Below are positions 1 to 17,391 of a DNA stretch of 22,808 nucleotides, one piece after another. This stretch comes from a virus. The notes under the pieces were generated by a model. That model was not told where the DNA came from. It searched no databases and saw nothing but the letters and a program-made list of their open reading frames with translations. How positions within the stretch are numbered: the first letter of the stretch is position 1; each line of letters starts with the position of its first letter. The DNA lies in IMG/VR virus record IMGVR_UViG_3300024518_002131, positions 1 through 22,808 of that record; one strand, given 5' to 3'. The position numbers were made by a program, and so were the translations under genes.

Positions 1-58
1 GGATGGACGCCTCGCTCCCGGAGGGTAGCTTTCCGAGGTTCAATTCCTCGGCGCGCCA
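1..58 (+). tRNA. tRNA 3' portion, cut by the window start
   Basis: The 3' half of a tRNA is visible. The T-stem is CGAGG (34-38) paired with CCTCG (46-50) around a canonical T-loop TTCAATT (39-45). It is followed by a 7-nt acceptor strand GCGCGCC (51-57) and discriminator A58. The 5' acceptor strand lies before the window. Upstream, CCTC (10-13) can pair with GAGG (21-24) around a 7-nt loop GCTCCCG. Taken as the anticodon loop this would give TCC (Gly), but position 33 would be C instead of T and the variable region would be 8 nt, so the identity is uncertain. CCA is not encoded. The next unit begins two bases later, after AT. Confidence 0.55.
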
Positions 59-60
59 AT

Positions 61-130
61 GCTTCCGGAATACGGTATCCGCGAGGACCGTGAGGGCGCT
101 CGACACGTCCAGAATCCAGTTCCGGGAGCA
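61..130 (+). other. tRNA-like unit with acceptor pairing only
   Basis: GCTTCCG (61-67) pairs over 7 bp, including one T-G pair, with CGGGAGC (123-129), followed by A130. The unit starts two bases after the preceding tRNA end and is followed by AT, as in the neighbouring units. Inside, stems can form at 72-91 (GCGA tetraloop, two-base bulge) or alternatively at 85-110. No canonical T-loop is seen. It may be a decayed tRNA, a spacer folded by chance, or a reduced tRNA-like RNA. The register and the AT spacing are the main reason to list it. Confidence 0.3.
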
Positions 131-132
131 AT

Positions 133-201
133 GCGACGGAACGGTTCCCGCTGCGGTGGTGATTCGCACGTAGCGGCCGAGCTTCGAGGCTCGGCGTCGC
201 A
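133..201 (+). tRNA. D-arm-less tRNA-like unit
   Basis: GCGACG (133-138) pairs with CGTCGC (195-200), followed by A201. A T-arm-like hairpin CGAGC (178-182)/GCTCG (189-193) closes a short 6-nt loop TTCGAG. Between the acceptor and the central arm there are only 8 nt (140-147), too few for a D-arm. The central arm can be drawn in two ways. In one, TGCGG (152-156)/TCGCA (164-168) close a 7-nt loop TGGTGAT, which differs by one base from a typical His anticodon loop (GTG anticodon). In the other, a longer arm CCGCT (148-152)/AGCGG (172-176) has inner pairs. It could be a functional reduced tRNA or a decayed tRNA gene. Confidence 0.4.
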
Positions 202-203
202 AT

Positions 204-269
204 GCGGCGGCAATAAGCAACGGTGGGACTCCGTATCGAAGCCGTTCCGGGTGAAAGCTCGGCGTCGCA
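204..269 (+). tRNA. D-arm-less tRNA-like unit
   Basis: This has the same plan as the unit at 133-201. GCGGCG (204-209) pairs with CGTCGC (263-268), followed by A269. There is an 8-nt linker (211-218), then a central arm AACGG (219-223)/CCGTT (242-246), or alternatively ACGG/CCGT around a 7-nt loop TGGGACT (224-230). A T-arm-like hairpin CCGGG (247-251)/CTCGG (258-262) has a 6-nt loop without the TTC motif. Its 3' end shares an exact 16-bp repeat with the previous unit (189-204 and 257-272). The missing D-arm and abnormal T-loop mean a standard tRNA finder may not call it. Confidence 0.38.
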
Positions 270-271
270 AT

Positions 272-391
272 GGCGGTGTGGTGCAAGACGGAAGCACGCG
301 ACGGTATTGGAATCAGGATCGGCCAGAGATAACGCTAGCACCGATTCCCAAGTACGCCGTCGAGATCCTGGTTCGAGTCCAGGCGCCGCCA
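272..391 (+). tRNA. tRNA cloverleaf with hyperextended anticodon arm (120 nt)
   Basis: All cloverleaf elements except a normal anticodon loop are present. The acceptor GGCGGTG (272-278)/CGCCGCC (384-390) is 7/7 with one G-T pair. T8 is present. The D-stem GTGC (281-284)/GCAC (294-297) carries a D-loop with A14, GG and A21. The stem CGACG (299-303)/CGTCG (358-362) is in the anticodon-stem position, followed by a 4-nt variable loop. The T-arm CCTGG/CCAGG has loop TTCGAGT, then discriminator A391. The interval inside the anticodon stem is 54 nt instead of 7. Its flanks keep pairing (304-305 with 356-357, then 307-314 with 343-351 with one bulged base), leaving an apical loop at 315-342. It may contain an intron-like insertion or may be a tRNA-derived RNA with a different job. 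No anticodon can be assigned. Confidence 0.6.
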
Positions 392-394
392 ATC

Positions 395-432
395 GGTCGG
401 GCACAGCCTTTGGCAACGACCTTGTCATTTTT
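395..432 (+). terminator. possible Rho-independent terminator after the tRNA array
   Basis: GGTCG (395-399) pairs with CGACC (417-421), with an inner GCC TTT GGC hairpin (406-414). Five thymines follow at 428-432. The T run starts 6 nt after the stem, which is looser than a classic terminator. Its position just after the last tRNA-like unit fits an end-of-array terminator. Confidence 0.3.
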
Positions 433-483
433 GGCACTGTGGGGCGTGTCCGGCCGTCTTTTGAACGGTTCGACAGGGGGTGG

Positions 484-933
484 ATGATGGGGTTGACCAA
501 AGAACAGACGATCGAGAATGCAATCGCGAGCGTCGAGAAAGCGTACATGGATACCGAGTCGGAACAAATCGAAAGAGGATTGCGGTACGCTCGGCGTCAT
601 CTGGTTGATGCGTTGGTCGATCTACGTAAGGTTCCGTGTGAACCGAGTGATGGATCGATGACGATCGATGAACTTGACGAACTGCAAAACTATAAGCCAG
701 TTCCTGCCAGGGAAACGATGATGCACACGGTCGACTCATCGCAAAAGATAAGTAGCCTGCAGCGCGAGACGATCGAGCGTGCCCTAAAGAGGATCGTCGA
801 ACTGCTCGACGACGAAGACGCTCATCCGACGGACACGATCGAGCAAATCGAGGAAACGTTCGCCCGAATGGGCGTCCCGGTTGGCGGTCTACGGGATTCC
901 GCTTGCGATCGTTCCGGTGACGGCGTAGGATGA
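484..933 (+). CDS. hypothetical protein, about 149 aa
   Basis: I do not recognise this gene. The likely start is ATG 484 or the adjacent ATG 487, preceded by a GGGGG ribosome-binding site at 476-480. The frame is open further upstream, but that stretch is the tRNA-like array. The protein is acidic and helical, with segments such as TIEQIEETFARMG and RETIERALKRIVELLDDED that suggest amphipathic helices. It has no signal peptide or membrane span. It is the first protein gene after the RNA array and is followed by a gene-free stretch. Codon use looks like the rest of the window. Confidence 0.65.
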   Translation: MMGLTKEQTIENAIASVEKAYMDTESEQIERGLRYARRHLVDALVDLRKVPCEPSDGSMTIDELDELQNYKPVPARETMMHTVDSSQKISSLQRETIERALKRIVELLDDEDAHPTDTIEQIEETFARMGVPVGGLRDSACDRSGDGVG

Positions 934-4407: not shown

Positions 4408-4688
4408 AGCCCGAACGAATCAATCGATGGTTGTTCTTATGGCTTGCTGTTTCGCTTGCGTTGAACGCTGGGCAAGCGTGGCGTGAGTTGTTTCGCGAGC
4501 CGGTTCGTATCCAGGAGCCGGCCCACGAGATGACGGTCGACGAACTGCGCCGGGAGTCGAAGCGGTTGGGTCTGCCAGCTTATCAGTGCAATGGTCGTAG
4601 GCTGAATCGTTCAGACCTAATCAAGCAGGTCGACGAGATGGAGCGGGCGTTACGGCGAATGCAAGAGCAAATCGACGAAAGGAACTGA
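4404..4688 (+). CDS. membrane-anchored small protein with SAP-like helix-loop-helix, 94 aa
   Basis: ATG 4404 overlaps the preceding stop and has GAGG seven bases upstream. A single N-terminal membrane span (about residues 9-27, WLFLWLAVSLALNAGQAW) is followed by a segment MTVDELRRESKRLGLPAY and NRSDLIKQVDEME. This resembles the SAP / Rho N-terminal helix-extended-loop-helix pattern, which is usually nucleic-acid binding. A short coiled coil ends the protein. The combination would place a possible DNA-binding motif at the membrane. Alternatively it is an i-spanin-like lysis protein, with an N-terminal anchor and a helical tail. Both readings are inference. Confidence 0.55.
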   Translation: MKPERINRWLFLWLAVSLALNAGQAWRELFREPVRIQEPAHEMTVDELRRESKRLGLPAYQCNGRRLNRSDLIKQVDEMERALRRMQEQIDERN

Positions 4689-4895
4689 ATGAAAGGAAAA
4701 CAAAGGAAGTACGGGCAAGTAAACGGCAAGTGCATGCCATTCCAGCGACGACGATGCAACGACGATCGACAAACGAAAAAGACCCCATGGCACTGGACCG
4801 AGGCGTACAACGAACCGCCGAACCGATGGTGGCATTGGGTCTTCGGGACCGTGTTCTTCGCTGTTGTGATGTGGATTCTCTCGGAATGGATGTAG
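4689..4895 (+). CDS. small C-tail-anchored membrane protein, 68 aa
   Basis: This starts directly after the upstream stop with AAGGAA in front. The first 45 residues are basic and polar. The C-terminal end is one aromatic-rich hydrophobic span (WWHWVFGTVFFAVVMWIL). I do not recognise a family. Its place within four consecutive single-span proteins suggests a lysis or envelope module. Confidence 0.5.
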   Translation: MKGKQRKYGQVNGKCMPFQRRRCNDDRQTKKTPWHWTEAYNEPPNRWWHWVFGTVFFAVVMWILSEWM

Positions 4896-5082: not shown

Positions 5083-5109
5083 CGGTGAATCATGTCAAGG
5101 GACCAACTC

Positions 5110-6561
5110 ATGAGCGGAATCGTCGGCGCCAGCGTCGCGGCCATCGTCATCGCGGCAGTCAACGCCAGCGGCTATTCGATCAAGATCACCCACGATGGGG
5201 CATTGCCGGACGAGCCGATTCCGTGCTCGACGGCCCGCAACGCCAACGAGGCGGCCACGGTTCGTATTTGGGATACGGTGGGTCGGCAATCGTCTGGCGG
5301 TTCTGGCGTCATCGTCGGTCTCAACTCTCGGGAAGCCCTGGTTCTCGGTTGCTCGCATACGCATGACGGCGGTGGCAGGAACATCACGGTTCGGCTCGCA
5401 GGCTACGAGGGCCGGGCGCGAATCGTGGCTCGTTCGCGCCGCCGAGACTTGGCGTGGATGGTGATCCCTGCGGACCCCCGTATGCGTGTCGCCAAGGTCG
5501 CCAACCGCCAAATGCGATCCGGTGATCGCGTGACGCTGACCGGGTTCGGAGGGAGTGGACGAGGATTGCAAGCTCGCAAAGGGGTGGCGAGATCGTCGAC
5601 GCACGTCGGGGCGCGGACCGATTACGGGGATTCCGGTGGTCCAGCGTTTGTTCGTGGTGAACTTGTCGGTATCGTGTGGGGCAACTCAAAGCCGGGATCG
5701 GCATACGGAACGAGTTCGCTGGTCCCATTGAGGGACGTGGTCGAGACTGCTGTCGTCGTTCGTTCGACTCAGGCCGGCGGTCGAGTGTACCAACATCGGA
5801 ACGATACCGAACTGTGCGGATTGTTTCCGGCTGTCGGCCGGCTGATCTTTGCGAACCGTGGCAAACGAATGGGTAAAGGTCCGTGGCGTGGACAGGGACA
5901 AGGAGGATGCGGTCCTGGTGGTTGCGATCCAGGACAGGGTGGAGGCCAAGGAAGCGGTGAGCCTGGGCCTGACGACGACTGGTACGCTCCAGGTTATGGG
6001 CCGGATGACGCAGTCGGGCCGAACGAAGAACGACCAGCCCCGAAGCCTGGTGAGCCAATCGTGATCGATCCTCCTCCGGGATCGACCGTTGAGGTGGACT
6101 TGAGCGGGCTGGTTCAACGACCGGAGTTCGATGCGTTGCTCGGTCGGTTCGACACGCTTGCAACTCGGGCGGACATCGAGATCGTGATCAACCGCGTCAG
6201 CCAACTCGATGACGTGGTCGGACAGACGGCCGTGGTGATCGGACAGATCGACACGCGGTTGACCGCAGTTGAGGAAGCCGCATCTAAACCTGTCGAGCCG
6301 CCGCCGCCCGTACCGGTGAAATCCCATTGGGTGGTCGTTGCGGATTGGTCGGCGTCGTCATGGCCGGCATTGCTCAAGCAAATAGAGGCGACTCGTTCGT
6401 CATCGGGCGCTGCCATCGACACGGTCGATTCACGGCGTATCAATGGGGTTGTCGGGTCGCCGCAGTTGATCGCGTATCGTGGCGGGGTGCCGTCCGAACC
6501 GATTGCCGGCGACCGAGCCGTAGCGTTGGAACTGTTCGAGATCGCAAGAGGAAGTCGATGA
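5110..6561 (+). CDS. membrane-anchored trypsin-like serine protease with coiled coil and thioredoxin-like tail, 483 aa
   Basis: I chose ATG 5110 because AAGGGA lies 7 nt upstream; ATG 5092 lacks a clear ribosome site. Residues 3-18 form a hydrophobic signal or anchor. The protease domain spans about 45-215: GGSGVIVG, His83 in GCSHTH, Asp113 in RRDLAW, and Ser175 in GDSGGP, so the chymotrypsin-fold triad is complete. A Gly/Gln/Pro-rich linker (about 255-325) follows, then a helical coiled coil (about 330-392) and a Pro run. Residues 405-480 look like a thioredoxin fold: VVVADWSASSWPALLKQIE and GSPQLIAYRGG, with a Pro in the cis-Pro position but no CxxC cysteines. That assignment is inference. 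Likely role: proteolysis at the envelope or exported side, in lysis, host takeover or particle processing. Confidence 0.8.
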   Translation: MSGIVGASVAAIVIAAVNASGYSIKITHDGALPDEPIPCSTARNANEAATVRIWDTVGRQSSGGSGVIVGLNSREALVLGCSHTHDGGGRNITVRLAGYEGRARIVARSRRRDLAWMVIPADPRMRVAKVANRQMRSGDRVTLTGFGGSGRGLQARKGVARSSTHVGARTDYGDSGGPAFVRGELVGIVWGNSKPGSAYGTSSLVPLRDVVETAVVVRSTQAGGRVYQHRNDTELCGLFPAVGRLIFANRGKRMGKGPWRGQGQGGCGPGGCDPGQGGGQGSGEPGPDDDWYAPGYGPDDAVGPNEERPAPKPGEPIVIDPPPGSTVEVDLSGLVQRPEFDALLGRFDTLATRADIEIVINRVSQLDDVVGQTAVVIGQIDTRLTAVEEAASKPVEPPPPVPVKSHWVVVADWSASSWPALLKQIEATRSSSGAAIDTVDSRRINGVVGSPQLIAYRGGVPSEPIAGDRAVALELFEIARGSR

Positions 6562-7366: not shown

Positions 7367-7582
7367 ATGCCATTGGATACGAACGAGCAGTTGACCCTGC
7401 TCCAGATGAACGGCGCCACGCTCGGCGCGGAAAACGTCCGTTCGGCGAACGGCGTGGCCACGCAGGCGGGCAATATGGCTATCCTCAGCGTGATCCAACA
7501 AAACGCCGGCACGGGCGACGACGCGGGGTTGATTGCCGCGTTGAACACGGCCGACCGAACCCCGCAGGGTGGGCGTTCGTAG
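7367..7582 (+). CDS. hypothetical protein, 71 aa
   Basis: Start ATG 7367 follows GAGGAGAGAG. An upstream in-frame start is poorer. The protein is Ala/Asn/Gly/Gln-rich (NEQLTLLQMNGATLGAENV, GNMAILSVIQQNAGTGDDAGLIAALNTADR), probably helical. It opens a run of four small proteins with Gln/Ala-rich helices that may work together. No function assigned. Confidence 0.55.
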   Translation: MPLDTNEQLTLLQMNGATLGAENVRSANGVATQAGNMAILSVIQQNAGTGDDAGLIAALNTADRTPQGGRS

Positions 7583-7584
7583 CC

Positions 7585-7845
7585 ATGGAAACGCCCGATG
7601 CAACCGACGGGGGGTTGGCGAAACTCGTAACCGATTCCGTCCAGCGCATCGAAGCCCAGCGCCGCGACTACGCAGATCGGTCGCGGCGCCTCAACAACTT
7701 CTTTGTCCGCACTATGACAGACCAGACCGGCGCTATCATCCGACGCGAACGGGTCCAAATGGTCGACTTTGTCCGACTGGCCCAAATCATCGAAGGTGAG
7801 CCGCCGAGGCCAACCGAAGGAGAAAGGGGACGATGGCGGAACTGA
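7585..7845 (+). CDS. hypothetical helical protein, 86 aa
   Basis: The start at ATG 7585, two bases after the upstream stop, suggests coupled translation. A long amphipathic helix (about residues 10-65: LVTDSVQRIEAQRRDYADRS, NNFFVRTMTDQTGAIIRRERVQMVDFVRLAQI) dominates, followed by a Pro/Arg-rich tail. The tail overlaps the next gene by 13 bases. Coiled-coil oligomerisation is plausible. No family recognised. Confidence 0.55.
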   Translation: METPDATDGGLAKLVTDSVQRIEAQRRDYADRSRRLNNFFVRTMTDQTGAIIRRERVQMVDFVRLAQIIEGEPPRPTEGERGRWRN

Positions 7846-8084
7846 GTCTTGACGTAGTCCGAGAAGGCGATGAGCTACACCGGATAGCGCTTGAGCAGCA
7901 AGTGGATCGAACGGCAAACCAGGTCCAAACCCTGATCGAGGCCACTGCTGCGCAAACCATCCAACGATTGAACATCGAAGCATCTCGCCGGCAATCGGCA
8001 CAGGCAGCGGCCGACAGCGAGATCGGGAACTCAGCCGTTCGGGCCATCCAGGAGGTGGTCGTATCACCGGGGTTTTCGCAATGA
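7833..8084 (+). CDS. hypothetical helical protein, 83 aa
   Basis: AAAGGGG before ATG 7833 supports this start although it overlaps the upstream gene. The protein is Gln/Ala/Glu-rich and almost entirely helical (LHRIALEQQVDRTANQVQTL, IEATAAQTIQRLNIEASRRQ, SAQAAADSEIGNSAVRAIQEVV), like its neighbours. It overlaps the next gene by ATGA. Function unknown. Confidence 0.55.
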   Translation: MAELSLDVVREGDELHRIALEQQVDRTANQVQTLIEATAAQTIQRLNIEASRRQSAQAAADSEIGNSAVRAIQEVVVSPGFSQ

Positions 8085-10412: not shown

Positions 10413-11530
10413 TGTCCAAACAGACGTTCTTTGGCGGTGTCCAGAACGACGACAGGGCCGACGAGGATCTGTTCTTTGGCGGTGTCCAGACAAAAGCGGA
10501 CGAAGCGGCGGTTGGCGGAACAATCGCGCCGATCGCGGCGCACTATTATCGGCGATTGCGAGGTGTTGAAGTGCGGTTGCTGAAACAATCGACGGTGAAG
10601 ATCTTTCGCATCGGCCCGTTCGTCGATTCCACCGACGGAGTGACAGCCGAAACTGGCCTGACGATTGCGCAGGCCGACATCCAAATCAGCAAAGCAGGCG
10701 GGGCGTTCGCTCAAACGTCAGATGCTTCCCCAACGACGACCCACGATGCTGACGGATGGTACCAGTGTCCGCTTACGGCAACCGACACGGGAACGTTGGG
10801 CCTTTTGACTGTTCAGGTAGTTGCGTCGGGCGCGTTGATGGTGTGGGCCGATTTCGAGGTTGTGCCGGCGAACATTTTCGACTCGTTGGTGAGCGGTTCG
10901 GACAAGATCGACACAGGAATCGGCGACTCTGTCACGGGGGCTGTCGGATCGGTGACGGGGGCTGTTGCAAGCGTAACCGGCGCGGTCGGCTCAGTCACAG
11001 GGGCTGTTGGATCGGTAACAGGTGCTGTCGGCAGCGTAGCCGGAAATGTCGACGGCAACGTCACTGGCAGTGTCGGTTCGCTGACCGGGCATACGGTTCA
11101 GACTGGGGATTCGTTCGCACGGATCGGGGCGGCTGGCGCTGGCCTTACGTCGATCGCCACGGCGGCAGCATTGGCCACGGTGGATACTGAGGTTGGTCAG
11201 ATCAAGGCCGTCACGGATGTCATCCCCGACAGCGGCGCTATGACAAGCATTTCGACGGCAGCGGCGGTGACCGTTATCGACACGAACGTTGATTCAGTGT
11301 TGGCCCTCTTGGACGACGCACGGACCGAGCCGGCCCAAGGGGCGCCGCCGGTGAACCCGGATATGGCCACGAAGATCGACTGGCTCTACAAGGCATGGCG
11401 GAACAAGAAGACGCAGACCGCAACAACGCTGAGTCTGTTCGCCGATGACGCTTCCACGGTAGACACGAAATCGACGGTGAGCGACGACGGAACGACTACG
11501 ACGATCGGCGAAATGGCCACGGGACCGTAG
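10412..11530 (+). CDS. repeat-bearing appendage or fibre-like protein, 372 aa
   Basis: ATG 10412 overlaps the upstream stop. The N-terminus carries the motif LFFGGVQ/TFFGGVQ twice. The underlying DNA has a 20-bp exact direct repeat at 10426-10445 and 10471-10490. Residues about 45-150 form a beta domain (VEVRLLKQSTVKIFRIGPFV, GWYQCPLTATDTGTLGLLTVQV). After VPANIFDSLVSG comes a tract of 7-residue repeats, S-V-T-G-A-V-G type (about 172-225). An Ala/Thr/Ile-rich region follows, then a charged helix and a polar tail. Similar SVTG-type repeats are familiar from phage fibre-like structural proteins. Role in adsorption or decoration is inferred. Confidence 0.65.
   Translation: MSKQTFFGGVQNDDRADEDLFFGGVQTKADEAAVGGTIAPIAAHYYRRLRGVEVRLLKQSTVKIFRIGPFVDSTDGVTAETGLTIAQADIQISKAGGAFAQTSDASPTTTHDADGWYQCPLTATDTGTLGLLTVQVVASGALMVWADFEVVPANIFDSLVSGSDKIDTGIGDSVTGAVGSVTGAVASVTGAVGSVTGAVGSVTGAVGSVAGNVDGNVTGSVGSLTGHTVQTGDSFARIGAAGAGLTSIATAAALATVDTEVGQIKAVTDVIPDSGAMTSISTAAAVTVIDTNVDSVLALLDDARTEPAQGAPPVNPDMATKIDWLYKAWRNKKTQTATTLSLFADDASTVDTKSTVSDDGTTTTIGEMATGP
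10935..11092 (+). repeat. in-frame repeats coding VTGAVGS heptapeptides
   Basis: These are imperfect tandem 21-nt units within the gene at 10412, each coding a variant of S-V-T-G-A-V-G. The third positions differ between copies while the peptide is kept, which indicates selection on the protein. The last copies drift to S-V-A-G-N-V-D-G-N-V-T-G. Confidence 0.7.
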
Positions 11531-15739: not shown

Positions 15740-17391
15740 AGAATCGGAACGTCCCCGCGCCGAACGTCACGCTTTCGGAAGGTTTCGAGGGGATGCGGTC
15801 GGACTATACCGCCGCCAAACTCGGTCGCTTCCGACGCCGCAGAACCGGCATTTCGTCGATGGGGAGCGGAGCCGATTACCACTATCGGTCCGAGGCCGAC
15901 TTCCTTCGGATGCTTGAGTACGCGAGAGACATGGACCGGAACGACGCCGTCGTCGGGCAAACGGTCGACCGCGCAGTTGTGAACACGGTCCAAGACGGGA
16001 TCAAGGTCGACCCGAATACGGGCGACAAATCGCTCGACAAAGACCTGTCTGCACTGTGGAAGGATTGGGCCGAACACCCCGATCAATGCGACATCCAAGG
16101 AGAGATGGCGTTTTGCGATCTGGAGCGTTTGGCGTTGCGATCCACGATCGTTGATGGCGATATCATCGCGTTGTTGACCCGTTCGGGCCGCATCCAGATG
16201 ATCGAGGGTCACCGCGTTCGCACGCCTCGAAGCACTACGCGGAACGTCGTCCATGGCGTCCTTCTCGATCAGCTTCGCAACCACTTGGAATACTGGATCA
16301 CCAGGGAAGACATCGACCCGTTGAGGTCGGTCGCGAAGGTCTCGGAGATACGGCCATTCGCAACTCGCGACGACGATGGAAACCGCCAAGTCGCTCACGT
16401 CTACAACCCGAAGCGAGTGTCGCAAACTCGTGGCGTAACAGCGTTTGCGCCCATATTCGACACAATGGGGATGGGCGAAGACATCTTCTTTGCCAAGCTC
16501 GTTCAGCAGCAAATCGTGTCGTGCTTCGCGATCATCCGCGAAGTCGAGGAAGGCGCGACGGTGTCCGACGAGCAGCTTGGCGACCGAGAAACGGAGAGCC
16601 TGACAGGCGGAAGCGGCGTCCGGACGATTGATCAGATCTCTCCCGGCATGGATGTGACGGGTGACCCAGGCGAAAAGATCAAGGGATTCTCGCCGGGCGT
16701 TCCGAACGCGGAGTTCTTCGAGCACGCGAAGATGATCATGTCGCTGATCGGCGCCAACATCGGCATGCCGCTAGTGATGATGTTGATGGATGCGTCGGAG
16801 ACCAACTTCTCCGGCTACCGTGGCGCGGTGGATCAGGCTCGCTTGGGGTTCAAAGACAATCAGCGTTGGCTCGTTAGCCGCTTCCATCGGCCAGTCTATC
16901 TGTGGAAAGTACGCCAATGGATGAACGCCGATCCCTCGATGGCGGCGGCAGCCCTCCGTACTGGCGTCGACATGTTCGGTCACCGCTGGAATCCGCCGAC
17001 GTGGCCGTACATCGAGCCAAAGAAGGACGCGGAAGCCGACCTCGTACTCATGGCGAACGGCGTGAACTCCCGGCGTCGGGTGCATGCGTCGCGCGGCCGT
17101 GACGTTCGCGAAGTCGACATGGAGAACATCGAGGACAACAGCTTCGCGATCATCGAGGCCAAGAAGGTGGCGATGAAGATCAATGAAGCGTTCGATGACG
17201 GCCAACCGGTTCATTGGAATGAGATAGTGACTCTACCGTCGAGCAATGGTGGCGTTGCGATGGCGGCTCCGGTTCCAGACGAGGAAGACGAAGACGAAGA
17301 CGAAGACGAACAAGAGAACGAGGACCAGGGGAATCAAAATGGCGAACGAAACGGAACTCGAAATCGATCTCGGGCCGATTCTCGCTTTTGA
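15736..17391 (+). CDS. portal protein, lambda gpB-like family, 551 aa
   Basis: ATG 15736 overlaps the preceding stop. The frame extends further 5' but only over that gene. Family-like features include an N-terminal helical region with RDMDRNDAVVGQTVDRAVVNTVQDG, a core with LVQQQIVSCFAIIREV, and the segment EFFEHAKMIMSLIGANIGMPLVMMLMDASETNFSGYRGAVDQAR. That last stretch, with an N-F/S-S/G-x-R element, is characteristic of lambda-type portals. The C-terminus carries an acidic run (EEDEDEDEDEQENED) and a basic end. It forms the dodecameric DNA channel at one capsid vertex. Its last 53 bases overlap the protease gene. Confidence 0.9.
   Translation: MKNRNVPAPNVTLSEGFEGMRSDYTAAKLGRFRRRRTGISSMGSGADYHYRSEADFLRMLEYARDMDRNDAVVGQTVDRAVVNTVQDGIKVDPNTGDKSLDKDLSALWKDWAEHPDQCDIQGEMAFCDLERLALRSTIVDGDIIALLTRSGRIQMIEGHRVRTPRSTTRNVVHGVLLDQLRNHLEYWITREDIDPLRSVAKVSEIRPFATRDDDGNRQVAHVYNPKRVSQTRGVTAFAPIFDTMGMGEDIFFAKLVQQQIVSCFAIIREVEEGATVSDEQLGDRETESLTGGSGVRTIDQISPGMDVTGDPGEKIKGFSPGVPNAEFFEHAKMIMSLIGANIGMPLVMMLMDASETNFSGYRGAVDQARLGFKDNQRWLVSRFHRPVYLWKVRQWMNADPSMAAAALRTGVDMFGHRWNPPTWPYIEPKKDAEADLVLMANGVNSRRRVHASRGRDVREVDMENIEDNSFAIIEAKKVAMKINEAFDDGQPVHWNEIVTLPSSNGGVAMAAPVPDEEDEDEDEDEQENEDQGNQNGERNGTRNRSRADSRF

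Follow-up and report, generated by a model that had tools for sequence, protein, structure and literature searches.

The question raised by this locus is what kind of gene occupies the first 393 bases of the phage DNA studied here. The window, by which we mean the whole stretch of 22,808 bases, is a 22.8-kb virus record carrying the head genes of a tailed phage (terminase, portal, protease and capsid). An earlier note had described at its left end five tandem tRNA-like units ending at A58, A130, A201, A269 and A391, each followed by AT, all of which were confirmed in the sequence, as were the lengths of 70, 69, 66 and 120 nt for the four complete units (61–130, 133–201, 204–269 and 272–391). 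A protein gene across the array was considered and rejected: the four mechanical ORFs have no PHROGs or Pfam match at E 0.01. The start of the gene which follows was taken as ATG 487, its frame being open from GTG at 223. Blastn searches of window positions 1–500 against named phages gave no match, the unit 4 pattern had 0 matches in genome contigs, and the helicase alignment run against genome contigs returned 97 pattern stretches, none of them a relative. Elsewhere the window contains a 21/42-base tandem repeat (10937–11032) which lies in a coding frame and is translated as repeats of GSVTGAV; a gene (5092–6561) with a trypsin-like match slightly under the Pfam cut-off (19 versus 20.6 bits); and, at the overlap between the last bases of the portal frame and the first of the protease frame, a perfect 6-base GAAGAC tandem repeat (17284–17310).

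The array can be followed upstream in the 44.5-kb contig IMGVR_UViG_3300024520_000141 (L003), which derives from the same phage and shows 1 mismatch over the 22,808 bases of the window. The earlier note had suggested extending upstream in search of more units. This completed unit 1 (L003 8223–8320, 98 nt, of which 40 nt precede the window start), and no unit was seen upstream of it in L003, the array total thus remaining at five. Since unit 1 starts 3 bases after the stop codon of a helicase gene (domains ResIII and Helicase_C), the array is complete at its upstream side. The features are as follows, L022 being the homologous locus described below:

1–58, + strand: tRNA-like unit 1, 3' part, with T-arm CGAGG-TTCAATT-CCTCG, acceptor 3' strand and A73; homologue, L022 unit A
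59–60, + strand: spacer AT, from the sequence and the spacing test
61–130, + strand: tRNA-like unit 2, 70 nt, with a long acceptor-side helix and T-arm absent; without L022 homologue
131–132, + strand: spacer AT, from the sequence
133–201, + strand: tRNA-like unit 3, 69 nt, with a 6-bp acceptor, central hairpin and T-like hairpin; without L022 homologue
202–203, + strand: spacer AT, from the sequence
204–269, + strand: tRNA-like unit 4, 66 nt, its central hairpin almost the same as in L022 unit B
270–271, + strand: spacer AT, from the sequence
272–391, + strand: tRNA-like unit 5, 120 nt, with acceptor 272–278/384–390, D-arm 281–297, T-arm 367–383 and A391
306–352, + strand: insert of 47 nt in the anticodon loop of unit 5, placed by ARAGORN between acggt and tacgc; missing from L022 unit D
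392–393, + strand: AT behind the last unit, retained in L022 (AATCG)

All window units terminate in A, with CCA not encoded. Against dinucleotide shuffles, with folded stretches whose limits deviated from those of the units by at most two bases, the fold z-score was −3.7 for unit 1 (L003 8222–8321), −3.2 for unit 3 (one base off) and a weak −1.7 for unit 2 (69 of its 70 bases); as single sequences units 4 (−0.95) and 5 (−0.99) did not fold clearly better than shuffles. Units 2–4 have no standard T-loop and are more degenerate. Unit 5 has an otherwise ordinary tRNA frame plus a 47-nt insert, with GG in the D-loop and TTC in the T-loop; neither this insert nor the wider set of units described below had been noticed in the earlier note. 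That standard tRNA finders would miss most of the array proved correct: ARAGORN without introns found 0 tRNA genes in the window, and the Rfam tRNA model RF00005 matched unit 5 alone (41 bits, E 2.2e-7), with none of units 1–4 reported up to E 10. Allowed introns, ARAGORN read unit 5 as tRNA-Val(UAC) with 47 extra bases after U33; a 5-bp anticodon stem with a 7-nt loop is found in this unit when the 47 nt are removed and not otherwise. By ARAGORN defaults no tmRNA was found in the window, in L021 or in L022, and its tmRNA calls in the array came at low stringency, each of them spanning several units.

The spacing between units had been claimed to lie beyond chance, and this was borne out. In a test modelled on the earlier note (units of 60–125 nt, a 6-bp acceptor, a final A and joints of exactly 2 nt) positions 1–393 gave a chain of four units, which 0 of 1000 dinucleotide shuffles attained; 65 reached two units and 0 reached three. 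Allowing any one spacing between 0 and 8 let 5 of the 1000 shuffles reach three units and 0 reach four. The real sequence also chains four units at spacing 0 and 1, as CAAT permits neighbouring registers. Among units found by the scans described below, 9 of 13 junctions of at most 15 nt measure 2 nt (four in the window, two of the three in L022, and CT in L130, L135 and L153), the rest being 3, 3, 4 and 5 nt. Tight spacing is in itself not extraordinary, since the tRNA genes of T4 are annotated 1–10 nt apart. According to PMC11143913, most T-even dimers have spacers shorter than five nucleotides, and the T4 Pro-Ser pair has one of 3 nt.

A homologous array was found in L022 (IMGVR_UViG_3300024518_002276, 5.8 kb), where units A, B, C and D stand directly behind a related helicase (80% identical over the 109 residues present). 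A is the homologue of unit 1, B of unit 4 and D of unit 5; C, which is preceded by G at its acceptor start, is new, and units 2 and 3 are absent, so that for these two the support comes from spacing, acceptor pairing and fold. The spacers are AT, ATG and AT, with AT again after D; thus the short spacing, whose fate in homologues the earlier note had wished to see followed, is kept, with the exact two bases lost in one of three cases. It had likewise proposed a search for compensatory acceptor changes in relatives, and pair-keeping double changes were found between unit 5 and D: 8 of the 14 acceptor bases differ, all 7 pairs are kept, and three changed through a double change (pairs 1-72 to 7-66: G-C/U-A, G-C/C-G, C-G/U-G, G-C, G-C/U-A, U-G/U-A and G-C). 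Consensus folds gave z-scores of −5.2 (1/A), −5.2 (5/D) and −1.5 (4/B) with 0 broken pairs in all three, the number of double changes not exceeding the maximum of 100 column shuffles (4 versus 4 for 1/A, 4 versus 5 for 5/D). Ten groups folded in this way ranged from −1.5 to −5.6, two of them having broken pairs (1 and 3). Units 4 and B are identical at 59 of 66 aligned bases, the central hairpin being almost unchanged.

According to the alignment D is without the 47-nt insert, and by eye its anticodon region holds no 5-bp stem with a 7-nt UAC loop, which argues against an intron in unit 5; a group I or an archaeal-type intron was rejected on this ground, and group I introns are in any case far longer than 47 nt. 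Judged from these alignments, the array is modular and appears to be maintained as RNA. No such array was seen in the 2 kb behind the more distant helicase of L021 (67%), and visual inspection of the 620 bases which follow the helicase at 18 loci, the L021 record included, showed none either. About 700 bases after the array L022 carries a further tRNA-like gene (1390–1490), called by ARAGORN as Leu with an 8-nt intron and scoring 29.3 bits with RF00005.

Does the window array belong to something larger? When helicase-relative records were searched with RF00005, 10 of 29 gave some match, 7 of them above the cut-off, and several units were odd. The largest subset is of the type GGATCGG-CGGCGTG ... 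GCAGGTTCGAATCCTGC-CCGATCC, and two pattern scans yielded 19 and 80 stretches. In the latter a 3' partner was present for 42 distinct units and absent for 35 starts, some of these being real with shifted T-arms and some coding. We judged 38 of the 42 to be real, dropping L187, L177, L159 and L188 as false; among these 38 members L126 2193 has a wrong 3' end, and two (L156, the 63-nt member, and L174) lie inside same-strand ORFs of at least 120 codons. A grammar independent of that sequence (7-bp acceptor, D-arm, T-arm) had 67 distinct hits when applied to all loci and 2 when applied to one mononucleotide shuffle of them. Five of the 67 were set aside: L003 8172 was a misregistered unit 1, and L185, L049, L058 and L027 were judged false. 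The remaining 62 include ordinary tRNAs, and 38 are at least 95 nt long. In 148.5 kb of T4, phiKZ and lambda DNA, used as a control, the grammar recovered 2 of 8 annotated T4 tRNAs, from which its sensitivity is low, and one 89-nt phiKZ hit, with none of at least 95 nt.

Most members of the wider set were found through sequence patterns. In loci fetched by protein similarity alone the grammar had no hit among phrog_4652 relatives (211 kb) and 5 among helicase relatives (296 kb), of which 2 were judged true (L060 and L062); the class is thus sparse in those relatives. At gathering level Rfam reported one tRNA and no other family in 19 family loci, and a family element had only 26–27-nt matches (E 0.3–0.4) in named phages and plasmids. 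What ties the window array to the wider set is its architecture, together with helicase relatives which carry the GGATCGG type (G043, G045 and G047); no similarity in unit sequence was found linking the two.

The members of the wider set retain the acceptor, D-arm and T-arm. Between the two arms, where a tRNA has its anticodon arm, stand 13 to 137 mostly unrelated bases. Pair 1-72, which had been left free in the 5' pattern scan and so was not a selection criterion, forms a pair in all 44 distinct units that have CCGATC downstream (the false L187 still included), as against 33.4 expected under independence; the types are G-C 36, C-G 3, A-U 2, U-A 2 and G-U 1. Set aside from this count were 29 starts without CCGATC, among them L153, L155, L156, L170, L175 and L190, which are treated as members in other counts. 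The D-loop and T-loop also change together (positions 18/19 with 55/56): GACGG occurs with UUC, GACAG with UGC and GACAAC with UGU, and all 11 distinct GA-type combinations are concordant (permutation p 0.0007, under a rule framed after the loops had been seen and a permutation which ignores relatedness). These 11 were taken from 33 units with usable loops, nine GT-type combinations and one other being left out; the GT type was omitted as its positions 18/19 are ambiguous, and at least two such combinations break the simple rule (GTGGGTA with TGCAAAT, GTGGCGA with TTTGAAT). Pair 19-56 is G-C in 9 and A-U in 1 of 10 rows, a switch from G19-C56 to A19-U56. In a paired-column test all 18 pairs were 100% paired and 8 had double changes, a result reached by 0 of 500 shuffles; the units tested were 10 of 29 distinct modules, those with eight-base D-loops, and had been selected by the scans for pairing except at pair 19-56. 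Covariation between D-loop and T-loop is a signature of the tRNA elbow, and these comparisons support the view that the wider set keeps this contact.

Several members have ordinary-looking tRNAs nearby. In L193 such tRNAs and an enlarged GGATCGG-type unit cluster together (7488–7636, 7727–7844 and 7982–8053), two of the tRNAs being 73 nt long with a 3-nt spacer CAT, and the first pair of the enlarged unit being U-A. Short tRNA-like genes end 2 nt (CT) before an enlarged GGATCGG unit in L130 (145–212), L135 (4549–4620) and L153 (7013–7084), and the stretch before L129 3613 is likewise a short tRNA-like gene 2 nt ahead of such a unit. The short gene of L130 has the word CATAAGCT, common to L068 and L097, as in a CAU anticodon arm. 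ARAGORN called L060 4671–4743 a tRNA-Pyl (CTA); the stretch 4663–4743 is an 81-nt GGATCGG-type member, which makes the amber-suppressor label doubtful. L010 holds a tRNA-Leu gene (181–265) and, 16.5 kb away on the same contig, a partial copy (16702–16791), and L030 has a tRNA fragment near 1501–1560 by an apparent integrase gene. These pieces are probably attachment sites, an explanation which may account for the fragments in L010 and L030 and was rejected for full units with inserts.

The inserts themselves are highly variable. The 69 units, ordinary tRNAs included, fall into 58 insert clusters, and among them no common insert motif or word was found beyond chance. A closing helix like that of an anticodon arm occurs in 10 of 44 inserts, with 9.3 expected by chance, and the shortest member, of 63 nt with a 13-nt insert, leaves no room for an anticodon arm. 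Insert structure is weakly above that of shuffles (mean z −0.52, with 8 of 44 below −2). A search for targets of the inserts and window units in all fetched loci (blastn-short, E up to 0.05) produced, outside the family, one 20-nt and one 16-nt match, and hence no target.

At fixed loci inserts are replaced. Three phages which carry a unit behind the same recT gene have upstream flanks 91–94% identical and unrelated inserts (13–27%), and behind a second gene, one without a Pfam match, a pair has upstream flanks at 97% and inserts at 16%, with four looser pairs at 70–82% and 16–34%. The downstream flanks of these eight flank-sharing pairs are 19–86% identical and mostly different, such that most swaps could have arisen by a single crossover within the 5' portion held in common; two pairs with unrelated inserts are alike on both flanks (L122/L192, 91 and 71%; L123/L104, 82 and 86%). 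The reverse situation is seen in ten same-insert pairs, chosen by the analyst, with L135/L150, L135/L190 and L175/L178 not in the table. Here the inserts are 85–98% identical with at most one unmatched base, and the upstream flanks are 24–39% identical in nine of the ten and 75% in one (random pairs average 30%, with a maximum of 47%), those downstream being 23–54%. L135/L150, which share the same type of insert in part, are a counter-example with 26 unmatched bases. In G043b/L107, where the insert is 15% diverged, one base in 172 columns is unmatched and three double changes are seen, of which the insert holds two (null mean 0.84, maximum 3). Shared inserts in unrelated surroundings show that units move together with their inserts and that the inserts persist through the transfer. 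The alignments therefore support the recurrence of whole units, insert included, across phages and surroundings, and the insert does not look like mere filler.

On balance we favour, with some reserve, the reading that these are natural tRNA scaffolds which carry RNA payloads and would be matured by tRNA enzymes, both the processing and the payload function being inferred, the former from known biology. The five tRNA-like RNAs would presumably be encoded on one transcript. Processing unit by unit, as the earlier note proposed, is plausible: host RNase P would cut where each unit begins, the AU left behind its end would be trimmed and CCA possibly added, as in phage tRNA arrays. For T4, PMC11143913 describes dimeric precursors with spacers under five nucleotides and a Pro-Ser pair without encoded CCA. 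The tRNA-like body may protect the RNA and give it exact ends, and the insert would be the working part, a trans-acting RNA with a different target for each unit. Insert turnover at fixed loci leads us to think host defence or rival elements the most likely targets. A broader proposition is more tentative, and we consider it possible though less likely than not: that there is a widespread, unannotated class of phage RNA in which a fixed acceptor and elbow frame a cassette of 13–137 bases swapped between phages, occurring singly or in arrays and cut out by host tRNA enzymes, its target changing from one phage to the next.

The strongest rival, itself rather unlikely in our estimation, regards the RNAs as decoys which soak up or block proteins that bind the acceptor and elbow, such as tRNA-cutting defence nucleases, Cas12a3-like tail cutters, the CCA enzyme or EF-Tu; the insert would then merely remove the anticodon arm and need carry no information. 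The conserved parts, acceptor stem, T-arm and elbow, fit this, and phage tRNAs are reported to aid escape from tRNA-cutting defences and retrons (PMC10264068, PMC11555353), although those papers deal with tRNAs or tRNA cutting, and the word decoy is absent from PMC12851939 and from the searched text of PMC10264068. Filler, however, need not stay constant as it does in the ten same-insert pairs, nine of them in unrelated surroundings, an argument which L135/L150 in turn counters. It is known that mitochondrial tRNAs punctuate polycistronic messages, and tRNA-like units might similarly be cut sites which divide those of phages. For 10 of 38 units there is indeed at most 39 nt between the unit and the end of the longest same-strand ORF upstream, and the conserved parts are those read by RNase P (PMC11143913); for that purpose one unit would be enough, and as this accounts neither for arrays of four or five nor for insert exchange we think it improbable.

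About equally improbable are real translation tRNAs with unusual bodies or introns. The ARAGORN reading of unit 5 as a tRNA-Val(UAC) with a 47-nt intron and the ordinary or near-ordinary tRNAs adjoining family members in some phages speak for them; the missing anticodon stem in the insert-less D of L022 and the lack of space in the 63-nt member speak against. Chance, or decaying tRNA pseudogenes, would suit the degenerate units 2–4, the weak consensus fold of 4/B and the single-sequence folds of units 4 and 5, but given the shuffle test, acceptor pairs kept after 8 changes and 67 grammar hits against 2, we regard it as very improbable. Two other candidates were rejected. Integron attC sites resemble the units in their conserved ends and variable middle, but the separate D- and T-hairpins and the elbow covariation misfit the attC consensus as it is generally known; and for a Y RNA the TROVE-domain partner was found in 0 of 33 phage records at E 0.1, records which may be fragments.

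Among known systems the tRNA clusters of T-even phages resemble this array in being phage arrays of RNA genes 1–10 nt apart with short spacers. The T4 cluster also holds, by annotation, stable RNAs of 139 and 119 nt, rnaC (species 1) and rnaD (species 2); it differs in that its other members are annotated as ordinary tRNAs and no exchangeable insert is annotated. YrlA, a bacterial Y RNA which works with a Ro/TROVE protein, likewise mimics tRNA and is unlike our units in that dependence and in layout. The gammaherpesvirus MHV68 has tRNA-like RNAs fused to microRNA payloads, the payload standing behind the tRNA body; these are virus-encoded tRNA-like transcripts too, albeit of a eukaryotic virus. 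In engineered tRNA scaffolds foreign RNA sits at the anticodon position of the tRNA body. Such scaffolds for recombinant RNA are a man-made analogue (PMC3753655). T-even tRNA clusters are processed by RNase P, and this enzyme also acts on the precursor of the nearest functional precedent, the C4 antisense RNA of phages P1 and P7 (both from PMC11143913); Rfam found no C4 in L003 8210–8670 up to E 10, and none in the 19 family loci at gathering level.

The nearest published case comes from soil metatranscriptomes, where polycistrons of irregular sequences resembling allo-tRNAs were described (Mukai et al. 2017, via PMC7609411). These are also tandem and environmental, the soil ones could not be charged by E. 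coli synthetases, and a G-1 base is mentioned, L022 unit C likewise having G before its acceptor. Unlike our units they mostly have 8/4 bodies, in which an extra loop separates the acceptor from the D-stem, and the section describing them mentions no hypervariable insert where the anticodon arm would be; possibly they are part of the same world. In the full-text literature searched, with most subscription journals lying outside it, no account was found of phage RNAs which are tRNA-like and carry exchangeable inserts, an absence of little weight given that coverage.

What phages gain from their tRNA genes is a long-standing debate, and few units such as these are reported by the standard searches run here, as the empty ARAGORN result for the window and the single Rfam tRNA in 19 loci illustrate. 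If the class is real and expressed, it would add to that debate stable phage RNAs with a variable part which changes at fixed loci, and such change is what one would expect of a conflict between host and virus. If true, engineered tRNA scaffolds and tRNA-guide arrays would have a natural forerunner in these RNAs.
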